In this document: positions 350 to 46,335 of the stretch, in pieces | Layout of the letters: each line of letters begins with the position of its first letter | Position numbering within the stretch: position 1 is the stretch's first letter | Source: an uncultured SAR86 cluster bacterium | Lineage (GTDB): Bacteria; Pseudomonadota; Gammaproteobacteria; Magnimaribacterales; D2472 | NCBI GenBank assembly: GCA_905181595.1 | Contig: CAJIYI010000001.1 | Location: forward strand, 897,938 to 961,937 | DNA: 64,000 nt | Direction: 5' to 3' | The notes under the pieces: model-generated | The model's input: the letters and a program-made list of their open reading frames with translations, nothing else | What the model was told of the DNA's origin: nothing | Databases searched by the model: none | Translations under genes and position numbers: made by a program

Positions 350-1600
350 TTATACGTTAAAGATTATTCTTAGTAGGATATAAAACAGCACGGTAAAAGC
401 AGCGCCAGCTGGAATTGTAACTAGCCAAGAAGCAATGATTCTTTTAATCGAACTGAAATCAAGGTGCTCTGCTCCTTTCGCTAAGCCCACGCCTATAACT
501 CCACCCACAAGTGTATGAGTTGTAGAGATTGGAAATCCAAGGTAGGAAGCAGCTACAACCGTAGAAGCAGTTGCCATCTCAGCTGAAAATCCAAGACTCG
601 GAGTCAGGGTAGTAATTTTTTTTCCAACAGTCGCTATAACTCGTGAGCCAAGCGTTGCTAAGCCAAAGACTATACCGATGCCTCCAATAAATAGAACCCA
701 GGGGCTGATAGCTGCTTTTGAGCCAATTGCGCCTGTATCTACTACACTTACAATGGCAGCCAGCGGGCCAATTGCATTAGCAACGTCATTTGAGCCATGA
801 GCAAATGCCATAGCACTTGCAGAGACGATCATAAGAAGCCCAAAAGCAAATTCAATTCCACCATCGCGCATAATTTTTTCTTTGTTTGTTCTTAAAAAGA
901 ATGCTGTGCCAATTGCCACAAGTGAGCTAAAGAGCAAAATAAATAAATAAACTTCGTTATCACTCCACTCAACTCCAACATGCTTCAATCCTTTTCTTGC
1001 GGTAACAAGTGATATAACAACCGCAACCATAAAGCTATACATTGGTATGTATGTAATGGCAGCTTTCTCAGGTTCAGAGCGATCTAAGATTAATTTTTTT
1101 GCAGAAATGTAAAGAGCGAAGGCTAAAGTTCCGGAGAACAATGGAGATGTAACCCAACTCATGGCAATGGTGCCTACTTTATTCCAAGAAACTGCATCAA
1201 CACCCTTGGTAATTAAAACAAATCCAATAATGGCTCCAACGATTGAATGGGTTGTTGAGACTGGCCAACCTCTTAAGCTAGCAATGTACAACCAAGTCCC
1301 ACCCGCCAGCAAAGCAGACATCATGCCAATTACAAAAATATTTATATCATTAGCATAGATATTAGGGTCTACAATCCCTTTGCGAATAGTTGATGTAACC
1401 TCTCCGCCAGCTAAAAAAGCTCCCAGAAACTCAAAAATAGCTGCAATAATTATTGCTTGTTTAATTGTGATGGCTTTACTGCCAACTGATGTTCCCATAG
1501 AATTCGCCACATCATTTGCACCAATTCCAAAGGCCATAAAAAAACCTATAAAGCCAGCAATTAAAAGTATCGTGAAGGGATCAAGAAATAAATTTTCCAT
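350..1600 (-). CDS. pit: Inorganic phosphate transporter, PiT family
   Basis: This 416-residue inner-membrane protein carries the two inverted PiT signatures: GANDVANSMGTSVG near the N-terminus (residues about 27-40) and GSNDVANAIGPLA near residue 270, each followed by a STTHSIVG or STTHTLVG motif. Around ten hydrophobic segments surround them, and the length is normal for the family. PiT proteins are low-affinity, cation-coupled phosphate symporters. The gene is directly followed by a porin and lies divergent from a tetR-ppk2-ppx polyphosphate operon, so the locus takes up and stores phosphate. A possible PhoB-type repeat lies upstream at 1924-1952, beyond a small ORF. Confidence 0.95.
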   Translation of the reverse strand: MENLFLDPFTILLIAGFIGFFMAFGIGANDVANSMGTSVGSKAITIKQAIIIAAIFEFLGAFLAGGEVTSTIRKGIVDPNIYANDINIFVIGMMSALLAGGTWLYIASLRGWPVSTTHSIVGAIIGFVLITKGVDAVSWNKVGTIAMSWVTSPLFSGTLAFALYISAKKLILDRSEPEKAAITYIPMYSFMVAVVISLVTARKGLKHVGVEWSDNEVYLFILLFSSLVAIGTAFFLRTNKEKIMRDGGIEFAFGLLMIVSASAMAFAHGSNDVANAIGPLAAIVSVVDTGAIGSKAAISPWVLFIGGIGIVFGLATLGSRVIATVGKKITTLTPSLGFSAEMATASTVVAASYLGFPISTTHTLVGGVIGVGLAKGAEHLDFSSIKRIIASWLVTIPAGAAFTVLFYILLRIIFNV

Positions 1601-1776
1601 ATTTAAATAATAGTTATTAATTAATGATGCTATTAAGCATTATGGCTGTGAAAAGGAGATTGCTTTCTTGTTACTAAACACAAACCTTTGTGCAACATTT
1701 TGATGAAGCATCCGATGGTTTATATAGGAAGGATCTGCCTCTATTAGGACAAGATAAGATTTAGAGGGCTAATAAT

Positions 1777-1902
1777 TTAAGAGAAATAAATAACTGCTGC
1801 TAAAACGAACCACAAGGAGAAAAAACCAAATACCTGCATCTCGTTTGCTTGAGAACTTTTAGGCATTAAACCCTGTTTTTTTAATAATTTTTTAGTATTC
1901 AT
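1777..1902 (-). CDS. Small predicted membrane protein (41 aa)
   Basis: An unannotated-looking small ORF between pit and tetR. It has a lysine-rich N-terminal 16 residues (MNTKKLLKKQGLMPK) followed by one strong hydrophobic segment (about residues 24-40, ending FVLAAVIYFS). This is a positive-inside single-pass arrangement. It lies upstream of pit on the same strand, with about 175 bases between its stop and the pit start. No clear Shine-Dalgarno sequence precedes the ATG. I do not recognise the family. The composition and topology favour a real gene over chance, but the evidence is modest. Confidence 0.4.
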   Translation of the reverse strand: MNTKKLLKKQGLMPKSSQANEMQVFGFFSLWFVLAAVIYFS

Positions 1903-10002: not shown

Positions 10003-11489
10003 CTTGATGACTTTGAACTTTTAGAAGCTCTTCATAGGAAGTTACTCCTTCAAGTAATAATTTAGTTGCCGATGCATCAATTGATAAGGTATTTTTAAAA
10101 GCACATTTTTCTAATGTGCTCTCTGACGCTTCATCATGAATTAATGCTTTTAATTCATCTGTGACGCTAATGCATTCCGCAAGAGCAACTCTTCCCTTAA
10201 AGCCAGAATGACCACATTCTGCGCAGCCATTTGGCTGAAAGACAGTGCTGCTCGGAGTTTAAAGAAAATTTTTGCTGCATTGAATCTGAGGCAGTTATCT
10301 CAGTTCTGCATTTTGTGCAGAGTCTTCTTACAAGTCTTTGTGATACCACCATTCTAATGCTTGACGCAAGAAGATAAGACTCAATACCCATATCTCTTAG
10401 CCTAGCAATTGCTCCAATTGCGCTGTTGGTGTGCACTGTTGAAAGAACTAAATGGCCTGTCAAACTAGCTTGAATAGCTATTTTTGCTGTTTCTATGTCT
10501 CTTATTTCTCCAACCATAACTATATCTGGGTCTTGGCGAAGAATGGATCTAAGGCCTGATGCAAAATCATAACCTGCCTTTGCATTAACTTGAGTCTGAC
10601 CGATTCCTGGGAGGGTATATTCTATAGGATCTTCAACTGTCAATATATTTTGAGACGAGTCACTGACATGGCGAAGACCAGAGTAAAGGGTTGTTGTTTT
10701 ACCGGATCCTGTTGGTCCTGTAACCAAGATGATTCCCTCTGAAAATGTCAGCGCAGTTTTATAAGTATTTAAGATTGATTCAGGTAACCCAAGATCAGTA
10801 ATATTAATTTGTGCAGCCTTTTTATCAAGGAGCCGTAAAACCACCCTCTCTCCATAGGATGATGGCAAAGTAGAGACCCGCACGTCAATTTTGTTTGTAC
10901 CCAGGGATAATGAAACTCTGCCATCCTGGGGCTTTCTTCGCTCAGCAATATCTAGACGAGCAATAATTTTAAGGCGTGAAATTATTGGGGCTGAAAGCCT
11001 AGAGTCATGCGTCAAAACCTCCTGTAAAATTCCATCCACCCTATACCTAACAATAAAATTATCCTCATAAGGTTCAAAATGTATGTCAGATGCTCTAACT
11101 TTGATTGCTTGGCTCAAAACACCATTAATTAACTTAATGATTGGGGCATCATTTGCCCCGCTCAACAAATCCTCAGTAGGGGCCAATGTATTTGCAAAAG
11201 ACTGAAGATCAAAATTTTCAGAAAGGTCTGCACTAAGATTCGGATTATCGCCTTCTGCAGAGTAGTATTGAGTTAACAGTTGATCGAAATCCTTTGGAGA
11301 GCAGACTTCGGAGAGAAAATCAGATCTCAGAACTCTAGAAAGTTCTTGGTACATTTCGAGACTTAATTTTTTCTCAGCAATTACGTGAAGCTTTGATTCT
11401 TTTAAATAAGCAAGAACCCTGTGCACTCGGGCAAAATCATAGGGAAGAGAGATATTTTCTTCTGAATTTTGGCCTTCCAGATCCATCAA
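9989..11489 (-). CDS. gspE: Type II secretion ATPase GspE (reading frame broken near the C-terminus)
   Basis: The first 417 or so codons give a normal GspE: N1E domain, Walker A GPTGSGKTTT (residues about 258-267), Asp box, Walker B DPDIVMVGEIRD (about 323-334), His box and the first CxxC of the zinc motif (LCTKC, about 393). The open frame then ends early at 10197. The missing piece is in the next frame without a stop down to 9989: GCAECGHSGFKGR supplies the second CxxC and the rest of the C-terminal domain. One extra base around 10236-10262, in or near a CTTT run, explains the break. It powers pseudopilus assembly at the cytoplasmic face. A consensus error is more likely than gene loss because all partner genes are intact. 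Confidence 0.93.
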
Positions 11490-25463: not shown

Positions 25464-27157
25464 ATGAAATTCTTACTCTCAGCAATGATGATTTTCTCGT
25501 GCGCGATAGAATCTAAAATTTTTAACTCTCAAGCTATTGTCCATCCTGAGGTTGGTGCAAATGGAATGGTGGTGTCTCAGCACTACCTTGCTACTGATGT
25601 TGGTCACGCAATACTAGAAAGTGGTGGCAATGCATATGATGCATCTATTGCGGTTGCTTTTGCCTTGGCGGTTGTCCTTCCAAGAGCAGGAAATATAGGC
25701 GGCGGTGGTTTTATGGTGATGCATGATGCCGCATTAAATAAAAGCTTCAGCATCGACTACAGAGAAATTGCACCAGCTGCAGCAACCAAAGACATGTATC
25801 TCAATGCAGATGGTACGGTTGATAAAATGCGCTCTAGACAGGGAGTCCTTGCCATCGGAGTGCCCGGAACCGTTGCTGGTATGTGGGAGATTCATAAGAA
25901 ATTTGGCAGCTTGCCATGGGATCAATTGTTGGAACCTGCCATTGTTCTTGCAAGGGATGGTTTTGCTATGTCTCCTTTTATGGCAGATGCGCTAAATGGA
26001 CGTTATAAAAAACTCAGTAAATTCAAAAATTTTAAGAGCATCTTTTATGCTAATTACCCAGTAGAAATGCATGCGACTCTCACGCAACCCAATCTAGCTA
26101 AAACCTTAGAAGCTATTTCCAGCAAAGGTGCAATGAGGATTTTATGAGGGAGAAGTTGCTGATTTAATTGCCGACTACATGAAAAAGAACAATGGCCTGA
26201 TAACAAAAGCAGATCTCAAAAATTACAAGCCTGTTTGGAGAGAGCCTGTTCGAGGCAACTACAAAGAATACGAAATAGTGACCATGCCTCCACCTTCTTC
26301 TGGCGGTATTCATATTATACAAATGCTCAATATTTTAGAGCACTATAACTTGCCTGAGATGGGTCACAACTCGCCTACCTATGTAGCATTATTGGCTGAG
26401 GTCATGAAGTATGCTTATGCCGACAGATCAAAGTATTTGGGTGATCCAGATTTCTTCGATGTTCCTGTGACTGAATTGATCAGCAAAGAGTATGCCAAGG
26501 AAATAAAATCCAGAATCAATCTCAATGAAATTACTCCTTCGGATAAAATTTTGCCTGGTGACGCCATGCCTCATGAAAGCATGGATACCACACATTTTTC
26601 TGTAGCAGACAAATTCGGCAATGTTACCTCTAATACCTACACCTTGAATTCAGGCTTTGGATCAGGAATCGTTGTTGATGGAACAGGCGTATTAATGAAT
26701 AACGAAATGGATGATTTTGTATCAGCTCCAGGCATACCAAACCAATTTGGTTTGATCGGAGGTGAGGCAAATAAAATTGAGCCTTTTAAACGCCCTCTTA
26801 GCTCGATGACACCAACAATTGTCTTTCATGAAAACAAACCTATTATTGCAACGGGCTCACCTGGAGGCTCTAGAATAATCACTGCAGTTCTTCAGTTTCT
26901 TTTGAATACCCTAGATTTTAAAATGGAAATTTCCGATGCAACCGTTGTTCCAAGAATTCATCACCAATGGAAGCCTGATGTATTAATGCTCGAAAAAGGT
27001 TTTGACGCTGGAGCATGCTTCAGCAATTGAAGCTCTCGGTCAGCCCATCTATATCTCAGGTCCAGGCACCTCTTTGGAGAGCTTGGAAATAAAAAATAAC
27101 TTGTTTTATGGCTTTGGTGATACCCGAAGACCAGATTCAAAAGCTAAAGGACTTTAA
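25464..27157 (+). CDS. ggt: Gamma-glutamyltransferase, two frame breaks
   Basis: Three consecutive pieces, each one frame later than the last, encode one protein of about 564 residues. The first (to 26147) has a signal peptide and the GGT start VSQHYLATDVGHAILESGGN. The second (to 27030) contains the autoprocessing site DTTHFSVADKFGNV, whose Thr becomes the catalytic nucleophile, and SPGGSRIITAV. The third ends with the normal GDTRRPDSKAKG tail. Extra bases are inferred at about 26135-26141 and 27006-27011. GGT is a periplasmic Ntn-hydrolase acting on glutathione and gamma-glutamyl compounds. Two same-sign indels in an otherwise conserved protein suggest sequence errors. Confidence 0.9.
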
Positions 27158-40109: not shown

Positions 40110-40988
40110 TTAAAAAATATTAGGATTAGGTAAATCGCTTCTAGTTATAATAGATTCAACTCTATCTTTAAAAGCTTGTTCGCTTTTTTCATTTATAGGA
40201 TTGATCCAGTAATTAGATTTTTTAATTTCTGCTAAACAAAAAGACGCAACTTCTTCGGGCTCAGTTGTTTCCATCTCAATACCCATTGAGCTCATCATTT
40301 CAAGCATATCCTCTACTGAAGAGATTGGATGCTCTGGGGCATTTGGATCTCTTGCTAGTTCTTCGGGTCTATTGCGCTCTGCAGAAAATAACTTAGTTCT
40401 AACTGTATGCGGCCCAGGAAATAAAATAGAAACTTTAATATTGGATTCTGCCTGTTCTAGCTGCAGCTTTAATACTTCAGTAATACTAGAAACTGAAGCT
40501 TTTGAGGAAGTGTAAATTGGGGTTGATGGGAGGTTAATAAATGCGCCATTTCCTGAGCAAGTGTTAATTACTCTGCCGCCCTCTCCATGAGCCATCATCG
40601 CAGGAACAAATGCTTGAATGCCATGAAGCACACCCATCACATTTACACCAAAGGCCCATTGCCAATCATTTGGTTTGGTTTGCCAAATAGGCAAAAGCTC
40701 AGCTGGAGCAACCCCTGCATTATTAAATAGCAAATGAACCGATCCAAACTCTGATTCACACCACTTAGCAAGCTGCATCATGGATTCTGGATTCGAGACA
40801 TCCGCAACTTTAAAATGCACATCAAGAGATTGATCTGTTAAAGCCTTGGCAGAAGTCTCAAGACTCGCTGCTTCAATATCGGTCAGAATAACCTTAGCGC
40901 CTTCTTTGGCTAAAGCTTCTCCGATTGCAAAACCGACACCGGAGGCTCCTCCAGTAATTACAGCCAATTTACCCGTAAAATTTTCCAT
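40110..40988 (-). CDS. Short-chain dehydrogenase/reductase
   Basis: The 292-residue SDR has the cofactor motif ITGGASGVGFAIG (about 10-22), NNAGVAP at about 89, the catalytic Ser near 142 and YTSSKAS (Tyr about 157, Lys 161). The C-terminal extension after about residue 250 is longer than usual. It is the middle gene of an ADC-like/SDR/P450/Smr minus-strand operon. Confidence 0.9.
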   Translation of the reverse strand: MENFTGKLAVITGGASGVGFAIGEALAKEGAKVILTDIEAASLETSAKALTDQSLDVHFKVADVSNPESMMQLAKWCESEFGSVHLLFNNAGVAPAELLPIWQTKPNDWQWAFGVNVMGVLHGIQAFVPAMMAHGEGGRVINTCSGNGAFINLPSTPIYTSSKASVSSITEVLKLQLEQAESNIKVSILFPGPHTVRTKLFSAERNRPEELARDPNAPEHPISSVEDMLEMMSSMGIEMETTEPEEVASFCLAEIKKSNYWINPINEKSEQAFKDRVESIITRSDLPNPNIF

Positions 40989-41811: not shown

Positions 41812-41881
41812 ATTTTATAAAATATATTTAACAACTGTACAACTCGCAATTATATAAACATATTTTATGAAAAAATATGTT
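41812..41881. promoter_or_regulatory. Dyad-symmetric elements in the divergent promoter region
   Basis: Two AT-rich palindromes lie between the ADC-like gene (start 41773) and the Rieske-like gene (start 41976): the 12-bp perfect palindrome ATTTTATAAAAT (41812-41823) and AACATATTTT-N5-AAAATATGTT (41857-41881), a perfect 10-bp inverted repeat. They are well placed to serve as operators for both transcripts. Inverted repeats in AT-rich DNA arise by chance too, though a 10-bp match is unusual. The regulator is not identified. Confidence 0.45.
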
Positions 41882-41975: not shown

Positions 41976-42992
41976 ATGCCAAAACAAGAATTCCCATTTC
42001 CAATGCCAAACGGTTGGTTCTGCGTTACTAGAGTTGATGATATCCAAAATGGAGAAAGTAAGCTTTTTACGTTTTGTGAAAAAGAGGTGGTGGCCTTTAG
42101 AACTGAATCTGGCAAAGTTTCTGTCATGGATGCTTATTGCGGCTATTCAGGAATCAACTTAGCCATTAGTGGCAAAGTTGATGGAGAGACCATTAACTCT
42201 CCTAAGCATGGCATTAAGTGGAACATAGATGGTTCTTGTGCTGAGATTGGAAAAGATTCTGGGGTTCCCAAGGAAGCTATGGAAGTTACGACTTTTAGTT
42301 ACCCTTGTCAGGAACTCAATGGATTTATATGGGCATGGCATCATTTGCTTAAAGAAGAGCCTTACTTTGAAATTCCTGCGATTGATGGTTTTAATGGAGA
42401 AGACTCTAAGTGGGGTAAAGAGCACCATTATGAATATCACATCAATACAGTGCTCCAAGAAATTGCAGAGAACGATGTTGATCAAGCTCATTTTCCAAAA
42501 GTGCATGGCTCGCCAAGCTTGCCCGAAACAGAGGCCATTATTGATGGGATCTACAGAAAAACAATTGCAGAAACTCTCATGAATCCAAATAATGATAGTG
42601 TCTCTGAGGAATTTCATGTGGCAGATCCTTCAATGTTTACGACTACTTTTACCAGAGAATCATGGGGTCTTGGATGCGTAGGTTTGCATATGGTTAATTT
42701 ACCCATAGATGAAACTACGTTTGGTGGTGAATTCATTATGATTAATGCTTCTTGCCCGGTGGATAATAAGAACTCAACACTCCGTTGGTCCATGAGGGTA
42801 ACAAAAGATATTGAAGACGAGCTGGGAATGGCAATCATTGATGGGATTGCAAATGGAGTCTTGGATGACATGCCAATTTGGGATCATAAAAGTTACGTTG
42901 CTCAGCCTATTTTATGTGATGGTGACGGGCCGATTAATAAGTTTAGAAAATGGGTGAGTCAGTTTTATTCAGATCCGTTGCAAGCAAGATAG
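41976..42992 (+). CDS. Rieske-type oxygenase-like protein with altered cluster ligands
   Basis: The 338-residue protein has the layout of a Rieske non-heme iron oxygenase: an N-terminal Rieske-like domain (about 10-100) and a catalytic domain with NDVDQAHFPKVH (about 166-177), containing the D-x2-H-x4-H facial-triad histidines. However, the cluster motif CxH-x17-CxxH reads Cys55-Gly-Tyr57-x17-Ser75-Pro-Lys-His78. One His and one Cys are replaced, so a normal [2Fe-2S] Rieske cluster looks impossible. Spacing is preserved and the frame is clean. It may be inactive, use another electron path, or have a different function. It is followed directly by tdk. Confidence 0.75.
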   Translation: MPKQEFPFPMPNGWFCVTRVDDIQNGESKLFTFCEKEVVAFRTESGKVSVMDAYCGYSGINLAISGKVDGETINSPKHGIKWNIDGSCAEIGKDSGVPKEAMEVTTFSYPCQELNGFIWAWHHLLKEEPYFEIPAIDGFNGEDSKWGKEHHYEYHINTVLQEIAENDVDQAHFPKVHGSPSLPETEAIIDGIYRKTIAETLMNPNNDSVSEEFHVADPSMFTTTFTRESWGLGCVGLHMVNLPIDETTFGGEFIMINASCPVDNKNSTLRWSMRVTKDIEDELGMAIIDGIANGVLDDMPIWDHKSYVAQPILCDGDGPINKFRKWVSQFYSDPLQAR

Positions 42993-43574
42993 TTGGCAAA
43001 AGTACACTTTTTTTATTCGACCATGAATGCGGGGAAATCTACTGCGCTTCTCCAGTCTAACTACAATTACCAAGAGCGCGGCATGCAAACATTGCTGTTT
43101 CTTCCTAAGGTAGATGCAGATATTAATGATGGCATGATCCATTCTAGGATTGGCTTAACAGCAAAAGCTCACTCCATAGATCCTGAGTTTAATTTCTATA
43201 GCTTTGTCTCTCAAGAGCAAATGAAAAAGCCAATTAGCTGCATTCTGATTGATGAGGTCCAGTTCCTTACAAAAAAACAGGTTAGAGAGGTTTGCAAGAT
43301 TAGTGATGAACTAAACATTCCTGCTATGTGTTATGGAATCCGCACTGATTTCCAGGGTGCTTTATTTGAGGGCAGTTCTGAGCTTCTGGCTCTTGCTGAT
43401 AATTTAATCGAACTCAAAACAGTGTGTGATTGTGGCAGGAAAGCTATTATGGTGGTGAGGCTTGATGAAGCAGGAAAAGTCGTAACTGATGGTGATCAGA
43501 TTAAAATTGGCGGCAACGATTCCTACAAGGTTTATTGCAGAAAACATTTTCGCGAACTCACTCAGCTGATTTAA
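42993..43574 (+). CDS. tdk: Thymidine kinase
   Basis: A 193-residue type II thymidine kinase: P-loop STMNAGKSTALLQ (about 9-21), the LIDEVQFL Walker B region (about 85-92), CYGIRTDFQG, the zinc pair CDCGRKA, and the YxxxCRKHF tail with the last zinc cysteine. It phosphorylates thymidine for the salvage pathway. The start is TTG immediately after the Rieske-like stop (TAGTTG), so expression probably depends on coupling. The pairing with the Rieske-like gene seems incidental. Confidence 0.95.
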   Translation: MAKVHFFYSTMNAGKSTALLQSNYNYQERGMQTLLFLPKVDADINDGMIHSRIGLTAKAHSIDPEFNFYSFVSQEQMKKPISCILIDEVQFLTKKQVREVCKISDELNIPAMCYGIRTDFQGALFEGSSELLALADNLIELKTVCDCGRKAIMVVRLDEAGKVVTDGDQIKIGGNDSYKVYCRKHFRELTQLI

Positions 43575-44117
43575 TTATCTCTGCCCTCGTTTAAAAGATT
43601 TTAAGTATTTGTATGACGGGTCCTGTGAATTGGGTGTGCCAATATTTGCTCCCTCAATCATGGGGTGAGTAAGGTTAACTTTTGAAGGGTCGTTTACATA
43701 AGCCCAATCTGCATCCACTGCCCTGCTAGAAAATTTCCACACTCCATTTCTTTTTTCATACTCATCAAAATACCTTCCGCCAATCAGCACATCAAAATTT
43801 TGATCATCTGTCAGGACTTGATGAAATGCCAGAATATAGGTTTCGCCCTCAGCTTTATCGCCCATCAAATGAATGTTATGAGTGGTGACATTATGATGAA
43901 GGATGCCCATAGATTTTTGTATTTCAGGTAATAAATCGATGAATTCCATTGCCTTGCCTTTGAAAAAAGATCCGTGATCATCGTGAGCATCTTCGTGGTA
44001 AAGAGTTCTCATGAGCTCATGATCATGGCGATCAGCAGCTCGACAATAAATGTGGACCAAATCTCTAATAGATTCCTTATCAAGGATTTCTTGAATTTTA
44101 CTGTCTACTTCACTCAT
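43575..44117 (-). CDS. SnoaL/NTF2-like protein
   Basis: This 180-residue protein shows the SnoaL-type pattern IQEILDKESIRDLVHIYCRAADRHD, written here as ESIRDLVHIYCRAADRHD, then LMRTLYHEDAHDDHG and a cone-shaped beta sheet with GRYFDEYEKRNGVWKFSSR. Such folds act as dehydratases, isomerases, hydroxylase partners or simple binding proteins. The D-H residues near 35 could be catalytic. It converges on tdk with adjacent stop codons and is divergent from the Old Yellow Enzyme. Confidence 0.82.
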   Translation of the reverse strand: MSEVDSKIQEILDKESIRDLVHIYCRAADRHDHELMRTLYHEDAHDDHGSFFKGKAMEFIDLLPEIQKSMGILHHNVTTHNIHLMGDKAEGETYILAFHQVLTDDQNFDVLIGGRYFDEYEKRNGVWKFSSRAVDADWAYVNDPSKVNLTHPMIEGANIGTPNSQDPSYKYLKSFKRGQR

Positions 44118-44186: not shown

Positions 44187-46335
44187 ATGAACCTTCAGGT
44201 CAAACATCCTCTTCTTGCTGCTCCTGCCTCCATAGGAGGATTAGAGCTCAAAAATAAAATAATCATGGCTCCCATGGGTTCAAATTTTGCTGGAGAAGAT
44301 GGTCATACAACCGAGCAACTTGAATCTTATTACGAAGAAAGGGCCAAAGGAGGTGTTGGGTTAATCATTCTAGAGACCTCTGCAATCACATGGCCTGCAG
44401 GTGCTTCAATGCCTTACATGATAGGTTTTTCAAAAGACGAATTTGTCTCAGATCTCAATTCTCTTACTCAAAGAGTTCATCAGCATGGTGCAAAAATTGC
44501 CGCTCAATTAAATCATAGTGGAAAAATTGCTCAAGAAGATACGATAGCAGGAAGGCCAATTCCAGTGCCATCAATACCAAAATCTGAGCCAAGCGATATG
44601 TTTGGCCTTTTAACACAAGATGAAATTATGAATTTTATTAAAGCTGGTGGGCCAGATGGCAAGGGGCCTAGATATCATGAATTAACAATTGATGAAATTA
44701 AAATAGAAATCAATCATTTTGCTCAGGCTGCCAAAAGAGCCAAACTGGCAAATTTTGATGCGGTAGAAATTCATGCTGGTCACGGGTATCTAATTTCTAG
44801 TTTTCTGTCCCCTGCAGTAAACAAAAGAACAGATCAATATGGGGGCAGCACAGAGAATAGGGCTCGTTTTTTAATTGAAGTCATTCAGGCTATCAAGCAA
44901 GAAGTATCTGCCGATTTTCCTGTGCTTGTAAGACTAGATGCTAATGAATACAGAATTGATGGGGGAATAACTCCTAAAGATTTCCTAGTGACTGCTAGGC
45001 TTGCTGAAAAAGCTGGAGCAGATGCCCTAGATGTCAGCTCCTATGGCAATACAAGCAAAGGCATAGCATTTACTGAAGCTCCTTTAGTTCATGAGCCCGG
45101 TGGCTTTTTAAAATATGCGCGCATGGCTAAAGAGACTGTTTCTATTCCAATTATTGCTGTTGGAAGAATTGAGCTCGATGTTGCAGAAAATGGTTTAAAA
45201 AATAAAGATTTCGATTTTGTGGCCATGGGAAGAAAGCTTTTGGCTGACCCTGGATTACCAAATAAAATTTCATCTGGTCAAGAGCATTTGATCAGGCCCT
45301 GTATCTATTGTTACGTGTGTGTAAGTCAAATATTTATTAACAAGCCAATGATGTGTGCTGTTAATTCCCAATTAGGCAATGAGTTTCGGAACGAAAAAAT
45401 TATTTTTAGTACTGCTAGGCAAAAGAATATTTTAGTTGTTGGAGCAGGTCCAAGCGGCATGGAGGCTGCAAGACTGCTAGCAATGCAAGGTCATCATGTG
45501 GAGATATGGGAAAAAGATAAGGACATAGGCGGCACCGTTAGAGTCGCTACTCTTGCATATGAACCAAATGGGCAGTTGATCAAATACTCTGCAAAACTCC
45601 CTCAAAGAACTCAAAGTAACAATAAAGAAAAATACGGTGGCAACGATAGAAAGGATTGAATTATTTCAACCTGACCATGTGATTGTGGCTGTCGGTGCCA
45701 CTCGAGATGCCCCGCCCATAGCCGGCAAAGATCTCAATCATGTGTTTGATGGGGAGCAGTTACGAGGTCTGCTGTTTGGTTCTGATGTTGAAGCCATAAA
45801 AAAACTATCTATTTTTCAGCGGCTGATTTTAAAGATTGGTAGAGCAAGCCAATTATTAAGAAATGTTAAGGCTTTGACCATGCTCAGTAAAATTTGGATG
45901 CCTCTGAAGAAAAATATTACTATTATTGGGGGAGATTTAGTTGGTCTTGAGCTGGCAGAATTTTTAATTGAGCGCGGCAGAAAAGTTACTGTCTTAGAAC
46001 CCTCGTCTTCTCTAGGTCCCAATTTAAGCATAGTGCGCAGATCAAGAGTGGTTCATCTTTTAAAGGAGCATGGCGCAACTCTGTTAACTAACGTACAAAT
46101 TAATGAGATTACTAAAGCAGGTGTTTTGTATGAGCACAATAAAGAGGCTCACCTAGCCAAAGCAGATCAAGTAATCATTGCCATGGGGGCAAATCCAAAC
46201 TTAGATCTCGCCAATGCATTGCAAACAAGAAATATTCGCTCAACAGCTATCGGAGATTGCACCTCTGTGGGATACATACATGGAGCAATTGCTGATGCGA
46301 GAAATGCAGTATTAGAAATGGATGATTTAGCTTGA
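44187..46335 (+). CDS. Old Yellow Enzyme/2,4-dienoyl-CoA-reductase-type multidomain oxidoreductase, frameshifted
   Basis: The first frame (to 45659) has the FMN TIM barrel (NKIIMAPMGSN; HAGHGYLISSFLSPAVNKR; DALDVSSYGN), a 4Fe-4S cysteine set CIYCYVC-x11-C, and an FAD Rossmann motif VVGAGPSGMEAARLL. The second frame continues the FAD/NAD domains (VTIGATRD-like region read as VAVGATRD; IIGGDLVGLELAEFL; AIGDCTS). One extra base near 45584-45592 separates them; repaired, the protein is about 715 residues, normal for FadH/bile-acid-type enzymes. The substrate is unknown. Confidence 0.88.

Follow-up and report, generated by a model that had tools for sequence, protein, structure and literature searches.

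A KshA-type oxygenase gene in two interchangeable forms

The stretch of DNA analyzed here, referred to as the window, comprises 64,000 nucleotides from an uncultured SAR86 cluster bacterium (GenBank assembly GCA_905181595.1, contig CAJIYI010000001.1). The open reading frame (ORF) at 41976 to 42992 on its plus strand was identified by homology and Pfam matches as a gene for a 338-amino-acid homologue of the KshA-type Rieske oxygenases. We found that this gene occupies a single locus in SAR86 bacteria but comes in two interchangeable forms, one intact and the other old, derived, and cluster-less; the window gene belongs to the latter. The two forms alternate by recombination, and the catalytic domain does not carry a single fixed change between them. 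Neither observation was foreseen by an earlier description of this DNA made without database searches (the sequence-only reading).

The reading frame is unbroken over all 338 residues, as that reading had stated. Where the normal Rieske motif is C-x-H-x17-C-x-x-H, the window protein reads C55-G-Y57-x17-S75-P-K-H78. The exact spacing claimed for this sequence was borne out by the DNA, with TGC-GGC-TAT at 42138 to 42146 encoding the first ligand pair (His to Tyr) and TCT-CCT-AAG-CAT at 42198 to 42209 encoding the second (Cys to Ser). The protein therefore does not have the Cys2His2 [2Fe-2S] ligand set (CxH...CxxH) of the Rieske non-heme iron oxygenases and, judged strictly by this criterion, would be classed as a KshA-fold variant. 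Its degenerate Rieske domain (residues 27 to 118; 42054 to 42329) still scored 44.5 bits, above the Pfam cut-off. The catalytic KshA_C domain (PF19298; residues 121 to 331; 42336 to 42968) scored 113.2 bits against a cut-off of 23.3, and the best relative of solved structure was KshA 4qdc (E value of 7e-28). The mononuclear iron motif, previously described as intact, was present as D169-x2-H172-x4-H177 (42480 to 42506), and D298 (42867 to 42869), the putative third iron ligand, aligned with the Asp of the KshA sequence FEQD-V-E-I-W. H172, H177, D298, and the bridging D169 were invariant in both forms, which points to a retained 2-His-1-carboxylate site with its bridging Asp. A separate peculiarity of the window protein is a 4-residue insertion (ETTF, at about residues 246 to 249; 42711 to 42722) relative to all aligned orthologues.

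The host genome (1.41 Mb, 88% complete) was compared with those of its SAR86 relatives. Orthologues occurred in 25 of 107 family genomes, as a single copy in each and confined to two genera. None were found outside these genera among 203 genomes of the order, and 369 sampled genomes of the class yielded no further ones. Counts of the two forms cover the 21 SAR86 species with a readable Rieske domain. At the syntenic locus, the intact form, CPH...CPFH, was present in 12 of them and the cluster-less form in 9. The latter showed CGY...CPKQ (two species), SPKH (window), CPKH, CPQH, CTQH, CSKN, CSKT, and CAF...CPKS, the last belonging to the most divergent member, L049. All nine species, whose assemblies include the complete genome CP097973, had Tyr or Phe in place of H57, and H61 was likewise lost. 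Residue 78 varied among H, Q, T, N, and S. C55 was kept by every cluster-less homologue, and C75 by all except the window protein, the only one with Ser. The statement that two of four ligands are lost consequently holds for the window, but not for the branch as a whole, in which only H57 is always missing. Nor did the alignment and tree show all close homologues to be intact, an outcome that would have spoken for a local error: CGY or CAF forms occurred in nine species, none of which carried a stop or frameshift in the gene.

To separate the forms, 8 cluster-less and 9 intact sequences were compared. Twenty-one alignment columns distinguished them without overlap, and every one fell within residues 31 to 104; no fixed difference was found in residues 1 to 30 or from residue 105 onward, the catalytic domain included. 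These columns flank the cluster site on both sides and also take in the loop P92-Y93-A94-K95, which reads PYAKNFPPK next to the site in intact forms and is altered in cluster-less ones. The net charge of residues 77 to 104 was +1 to +3 in intact forms and 0 to -4 in cluster-less forms. Together, the altered loop and charge are consistent with loss of the surface at which electrons would enter. New residues common to the cluster-less form were I60, G79, and I80 (8 of 8 sequences) and G56 and Y57 (7 of 8), and no Cys or His was consistently gained at any of the 21 columns. The cluster-less form is the derived one, because outgroup paralogues carry the intact residue at 18 of these columns; they match the cluster-less residue at only 1.

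Exchange of the gene by recombination

In a tree of the Rieske domain, a single branch splits the two forms (support of 100/99), giving one origin for the cluster-less domain. Other parts of the locus disagreed with this grouping. The catalytic-domain tree required four changes of form, with the cluster-less sequences rejected as one group by the approximately unbiased test (P value of 2e-15), and the trees of flanking genes required 6 to 7. Because the catalytic-domain and neighbor-gene trees conflict with the Rieske-domain grouping, we conclude that the gene has been exchanged between lineages by recombination. Intact and cluster-less forms alternate because one allele replaces the other, and not because the cluster site is lost anew each time.

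Pairs of genomes with near-identical neighborhoods allowed the exchange to be followed at the nucleotide level, where identity fell to 48 to 68% midway through the Rieske domain. Codon agreement at positions encoding the same amino acid was 0.75 to 0.83 in neighboring genes of the opposite-form pair L038 and L056, compared with 0.58 in the oxygenase gene. For L037 (cluster-less) and L044 (intact), the corresponding values were 0.68 to 0.92 and 0.59. Pairs of the same form did not show this dip. Recent loss in place, genome by genome, was rejected on these grounds, since opposite forms are synonymously diverged across the whole oxygenase gene and the neighboring genes are not. As the dip extends along the entire gene, much of the catalytic domain is often part of the exchanged tract, and the idea of a cassette swap limited to the Rieske domain was softened accordingly. 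A third-position tree of the Rieske domain was saturated and weakly supported.

Selection and predicted structure

The ratio of nonsynonymous to synonymous substitution rates (dN/dS) in the Rieske domain was about 0.12 for cluster-less and 0.027 for intact forms by counting, and 0.040 and 0.009, respectively, by codon-based maximum likelihood, although these absolute values are rough, as synonymous sites are near saturation (proportion of synonymous differences of about 0.7). By the latter method, the catalytic domain yielded 0.011 to 0.012 in both forms. The comparison clearly indicates a cluster-less Rieske domain that is under constraint, yet less so than its intact counterpart. With nine species, a single domain origin, and continuing purifying selection, the cluster-free branch of the oxygenase fold suggested by the sequence-only reading is supported.

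A monomer of the window protein was modeled with AlphaFold2 from a 23-sequence alignment. The Rieske fold was predicted confidently, with block means of the predicted local distance difference test (pLDDT) of 85 to 97 over residues 11 to 120. Foldseek and VIA returned KshA as the nearest fold (4qdc, Z score of 21.3, 276 residues aligned, root mean square deviation of 4.6). Pfam and these model comparisons together indicate the order expected of the family, a Rieske domain followed by a helix-grip catalytic domain.

Gene neighborhood

The longer orthologous loci share the order P450, short-chain dehydrogenase (SDR), acetoacetate decarboxylase-like protein (ADC), oxygenase, thymidine kinase, and SnoaL. 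The P450/SDR/ADC cluster named by the sequence-only reading is thus genuine and conserved in synteny. In the window, the minus strand carries the cytochrome P450 (38856 to 40097), the SDR (40110 to 40988), and the divergently oriented ADC neighbor (PF06314; 41006 to 41773); the thymidine kinase follows the oxygenase gene on the plus strand (42993 to 43574), and the SnoaL-like protein is encoded on the minus strand (43575 to 44117). The promoter described as dyad rich fared less well. A single dyad, AACATATTTT-N5-AAAATATGTT with 10-bp arms, lies at 41857 to 41881 between the divergent ADC and oxygenase genes, but 4 of 200 shuffles equaled it, and it was missing from all orthologous intergenic regions examined.

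Beyond SnoaL, the window contains an OYE/BaiCD-like flavoprotein gene (44187 to 46335) with a change of frame near 45588; its relatives consist of one ORF of 710 to 716 amino acids. A distant version of this gene, about 40 to 43% identical to that of the window, lies beside SnoaL in L035, L036, L039, and L049; it is present in several cluster-less genomes and not in others. Elsewhere in the window, a gamma-glutamyltranspeptidase is split over two ORFs (25464 to 27030) and a GspE-like ATPase is apparently shortened (10197 to 11489), which points to decay or to small indel errors in this assembly. Steroid degradation genes have been reported in SAR86 (PMC4810484). Together with the KshA, P450, SDR, SnoaL, and OYE setting, this report makes a steroid- or terpenoid-like pathway probable.

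Electron supply to the cluster-less form

Sequence comparison leads us to propose that the cluster-less form may function as a non-heme Fe(II) subunit, sharing the substrate of the intact form and receiving electrons in trans, a reading that we regard as plausible while falling somewhat short of probable. Such a protein would bind no cluster and would still bind Fe(II). Because its catalytic domain carries no fixed changes, its substrate would be that of the intact form, a compound that is probably steroid- or terpenoid-like. Rieske oxygenases characteristically form head-to-tail trimers. Each mononuclear iron is supplied by the cluster of an adjacent subunit, and the electrons cross via a bridging Asp or Glu, as described for KshA (PMC4064121), for CntA (PMC7948474), and in PMC12445004. 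Here, they would most likely arrive through the retained Asp169, and their source would be a Rieske cluster carried by a different chain, either an intact KshA-like paralogue in a mixed trimer or a standalone Rieske protein whose gene lies elsewhere in the host genome. The degenerate Rieske domain would then be a structural element of the trimer only. The sequence-only reading had left the choice between a different electron path and a non-oxygenase role; the unchanged catalytic domain speaks more for an oxygenase whose electrons come by another route than for a new function.

Rieske-domain matches in the host genome comprised the window gene, the intact paralogue L001, a standalone protein in L002, and one match in a 210-codon frame (L004). 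The L002 gene for the standalone intact Rieske protein (145 amino acids; 1390 to 1824, minus strand) is directly followed by one for a KshA_C subunit (281 amino acids; 533 to 1375, minus strand) from which the cluster-binding lobe of 51 residues is deleted. Most genomes of the genus have the catalytic half of this pair, as do other SAR86 genera, and a version with about 54% identity occurs in another family of the order; the model of the catalytic half had a mean pLDDT of 67. A cluster-free catalytic subunit with its Rieske domain on a second chain thus appears to be present in the host cells already, and this split pair probably provides an existing instance of electron supply in trans. No KshB-like reductase was found in the host genome (88% complete), where the sole PF00970 match lay in an NqrF-like protein; a PF00111 search added an isc-type ferredoxin. 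None of the Rieske or reductase matches in this genome was a fusion of a Rieske domain to a reductase, and neither an NdmE-like partner nor a dedicated Rieske-reductase gene adjoins the window gene. A standalone Rieske gene was also absent from its locus, such adjacency being seen in the separate L002 pair.

Several observations weigh against electron supply in trans. The partners named are candidates from sequence. None was seen to co-occur with the cluster-less form, as L001 and the split pair are present in both classes, and an L001-type paralogue was not seen in the cluster-less genome G004 (73% complete). A folded degenerate domain would fill the place at which a Rieske domain in trans would dock, a lobe that the split pair does without. 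The active-site region of the model (residues 159 to 192 and 300 to 338) had a pLDDT of <50, leaving the iron site assigned from the alignment. Finally, constraint on the catalytic domain in cluster-less genomes could come in part from intact backgrounds via recombination; no such inheritance can explain the constraint on the cluster-less domain.

Among other explanations, an electron-independent non-heme iron enzyme, which would take electrons from its substrate or from hydrogen peroxide and dispense with the cluster, is unlikely but deserves attention. The facial triad has stayed intact though the cluster and the adjoining loop went together, and the missing KshB-like reductase, with its domain matched only in the NqrF-like protein, fits this view as well. 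It accounts less readily for the retained bridging Asp and for a catalytic domain without fixed change, and the stronger constraint on the cluster residues of intact forms suggests that the shared reaction normally depends on the cluster. A noncatalytic or regulatory subunit, acting in mixed trimers or binding ligand without turnover, would follow a pattern typical of pseudoenzymes, in which the electron transfer part is lost and the fold kept, and the intact paralogue L001 is present in the host genome. We consider this improbable, given that conservation of the catalytic domain, iron ligands included, is about equal in the two forms and that each genome holds a single copy with no intact orthologue alongside.

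Decay is similarly improbable. A loss-of-function allele kept in circulation by recombination would explain why dN/dS of the cluster-less domain is several-fold that of the intact one and why ligand positions 78 and 75 drift; the ratio nevertheless remains far below 1, the nine species are free of stops and frameshifts, and the form has common new residues, deep internal divergence, and a complete predicted fold. Binding of a cluster through nonstandard ligands would draw on the universal C55 and on C75 in all cluster-less homologues but the window. This is very unlikely in view of Tyr or Phe at position 57 throughout, Q, T, N, or S at 78 in several, S75 in the window, the loss of H61, and the lack of a consistent gain of Cys or His at the fixed-difference columns. 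As for sequencing or assembly error, the OYE gene of the window does have a broken frame, two more of its genes seem to be interrupted, and the S75 seen only here is one base away from Cys. An error is conceivable solely for this residue and hardly credible as a general explanation; for the whole cluster-less branch it is refuted by the replacement of H57 in assemblies of nine species, CP097973 among them. 

More tentatively, SAR86 populations may keep a long-lived two-form redox system at this gene, in which a normal Rieske oxygenase coexists with a recombining cluster-free version that carries out oxygenase chemistry with a different electron supply and a catalytic domain without fixed change.

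Comparison with known systems

In the textbook view, electrons in Rieske oxygenases pass through the cluster of the neighboring subunit. The two forms described here raise the testable question of what serves as the electron source for an enzyme that lacks the iron-sulfur site but whose catalytic iron site appears untouched. They constitute a naturally occurring series of alleles that share catalytic domain and locus but differ in whether the cluster is present, in which the need for a cluster and its possible substitutes can be tested. They also show that a redox module is exchanged by recombination in a bacterial group that ranks among the commonest of the surface ocean, and the split Rieske/catalytic pair in these genomes suggests that Rieske clusters in trans are in use.

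The closest match in sequence and fold is KshA (2zyl and 4qdc), the oxygenase of 3-ketosteroid 9alpha-hydroxylase, which likewise has the two-domain fold, KshA_C, a 2-His-1-carboxylate site, and a bridging Asp. It shares about 22 to 27% identity with the window protein in structure alignments and differs in that the latter has lost its Cys2His2 site and that a KshB-like reductase was not found in the host genome. The intact SAR86 orthologues (L044 and L056) have the same locus and catalytic domain and differ by the CPH...CPFH site and the PYAK loop. In the literature on SAR86 Rieske proteins and on degenerate Rieske ligands, we found no cluster-less Rieske oxygenase from this group. The nearest precedents are NdmC and the chlorophyllide a oxygenase of Micromonas pusilla. 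NdmC, the 7-methylxanthine N-demethylase subunit of Pseudomonas putida CBB5, works without a Rieske cluster of its own, the Rieske domain being fused to the reductase NdmD (PMC4408171). The window protein resembles it in being a putative non-heme iron oxygenase subunit that lacks a cluster of its own, but retains a degenerate Rieske domain that is predicted to fold, and no Rieske-reductase fusion was found. The Micromonas enzyme consists of two polypeptide chains (PMC9615114), whereas the window gene has no adjacent partner and sister species carry intact one-chain orthologues at its locus. What sets the SAR86 system apart from both is a domain that is degenerate but predicted to be folded, and the swapping of intact and cluster-less versions at a single locus.
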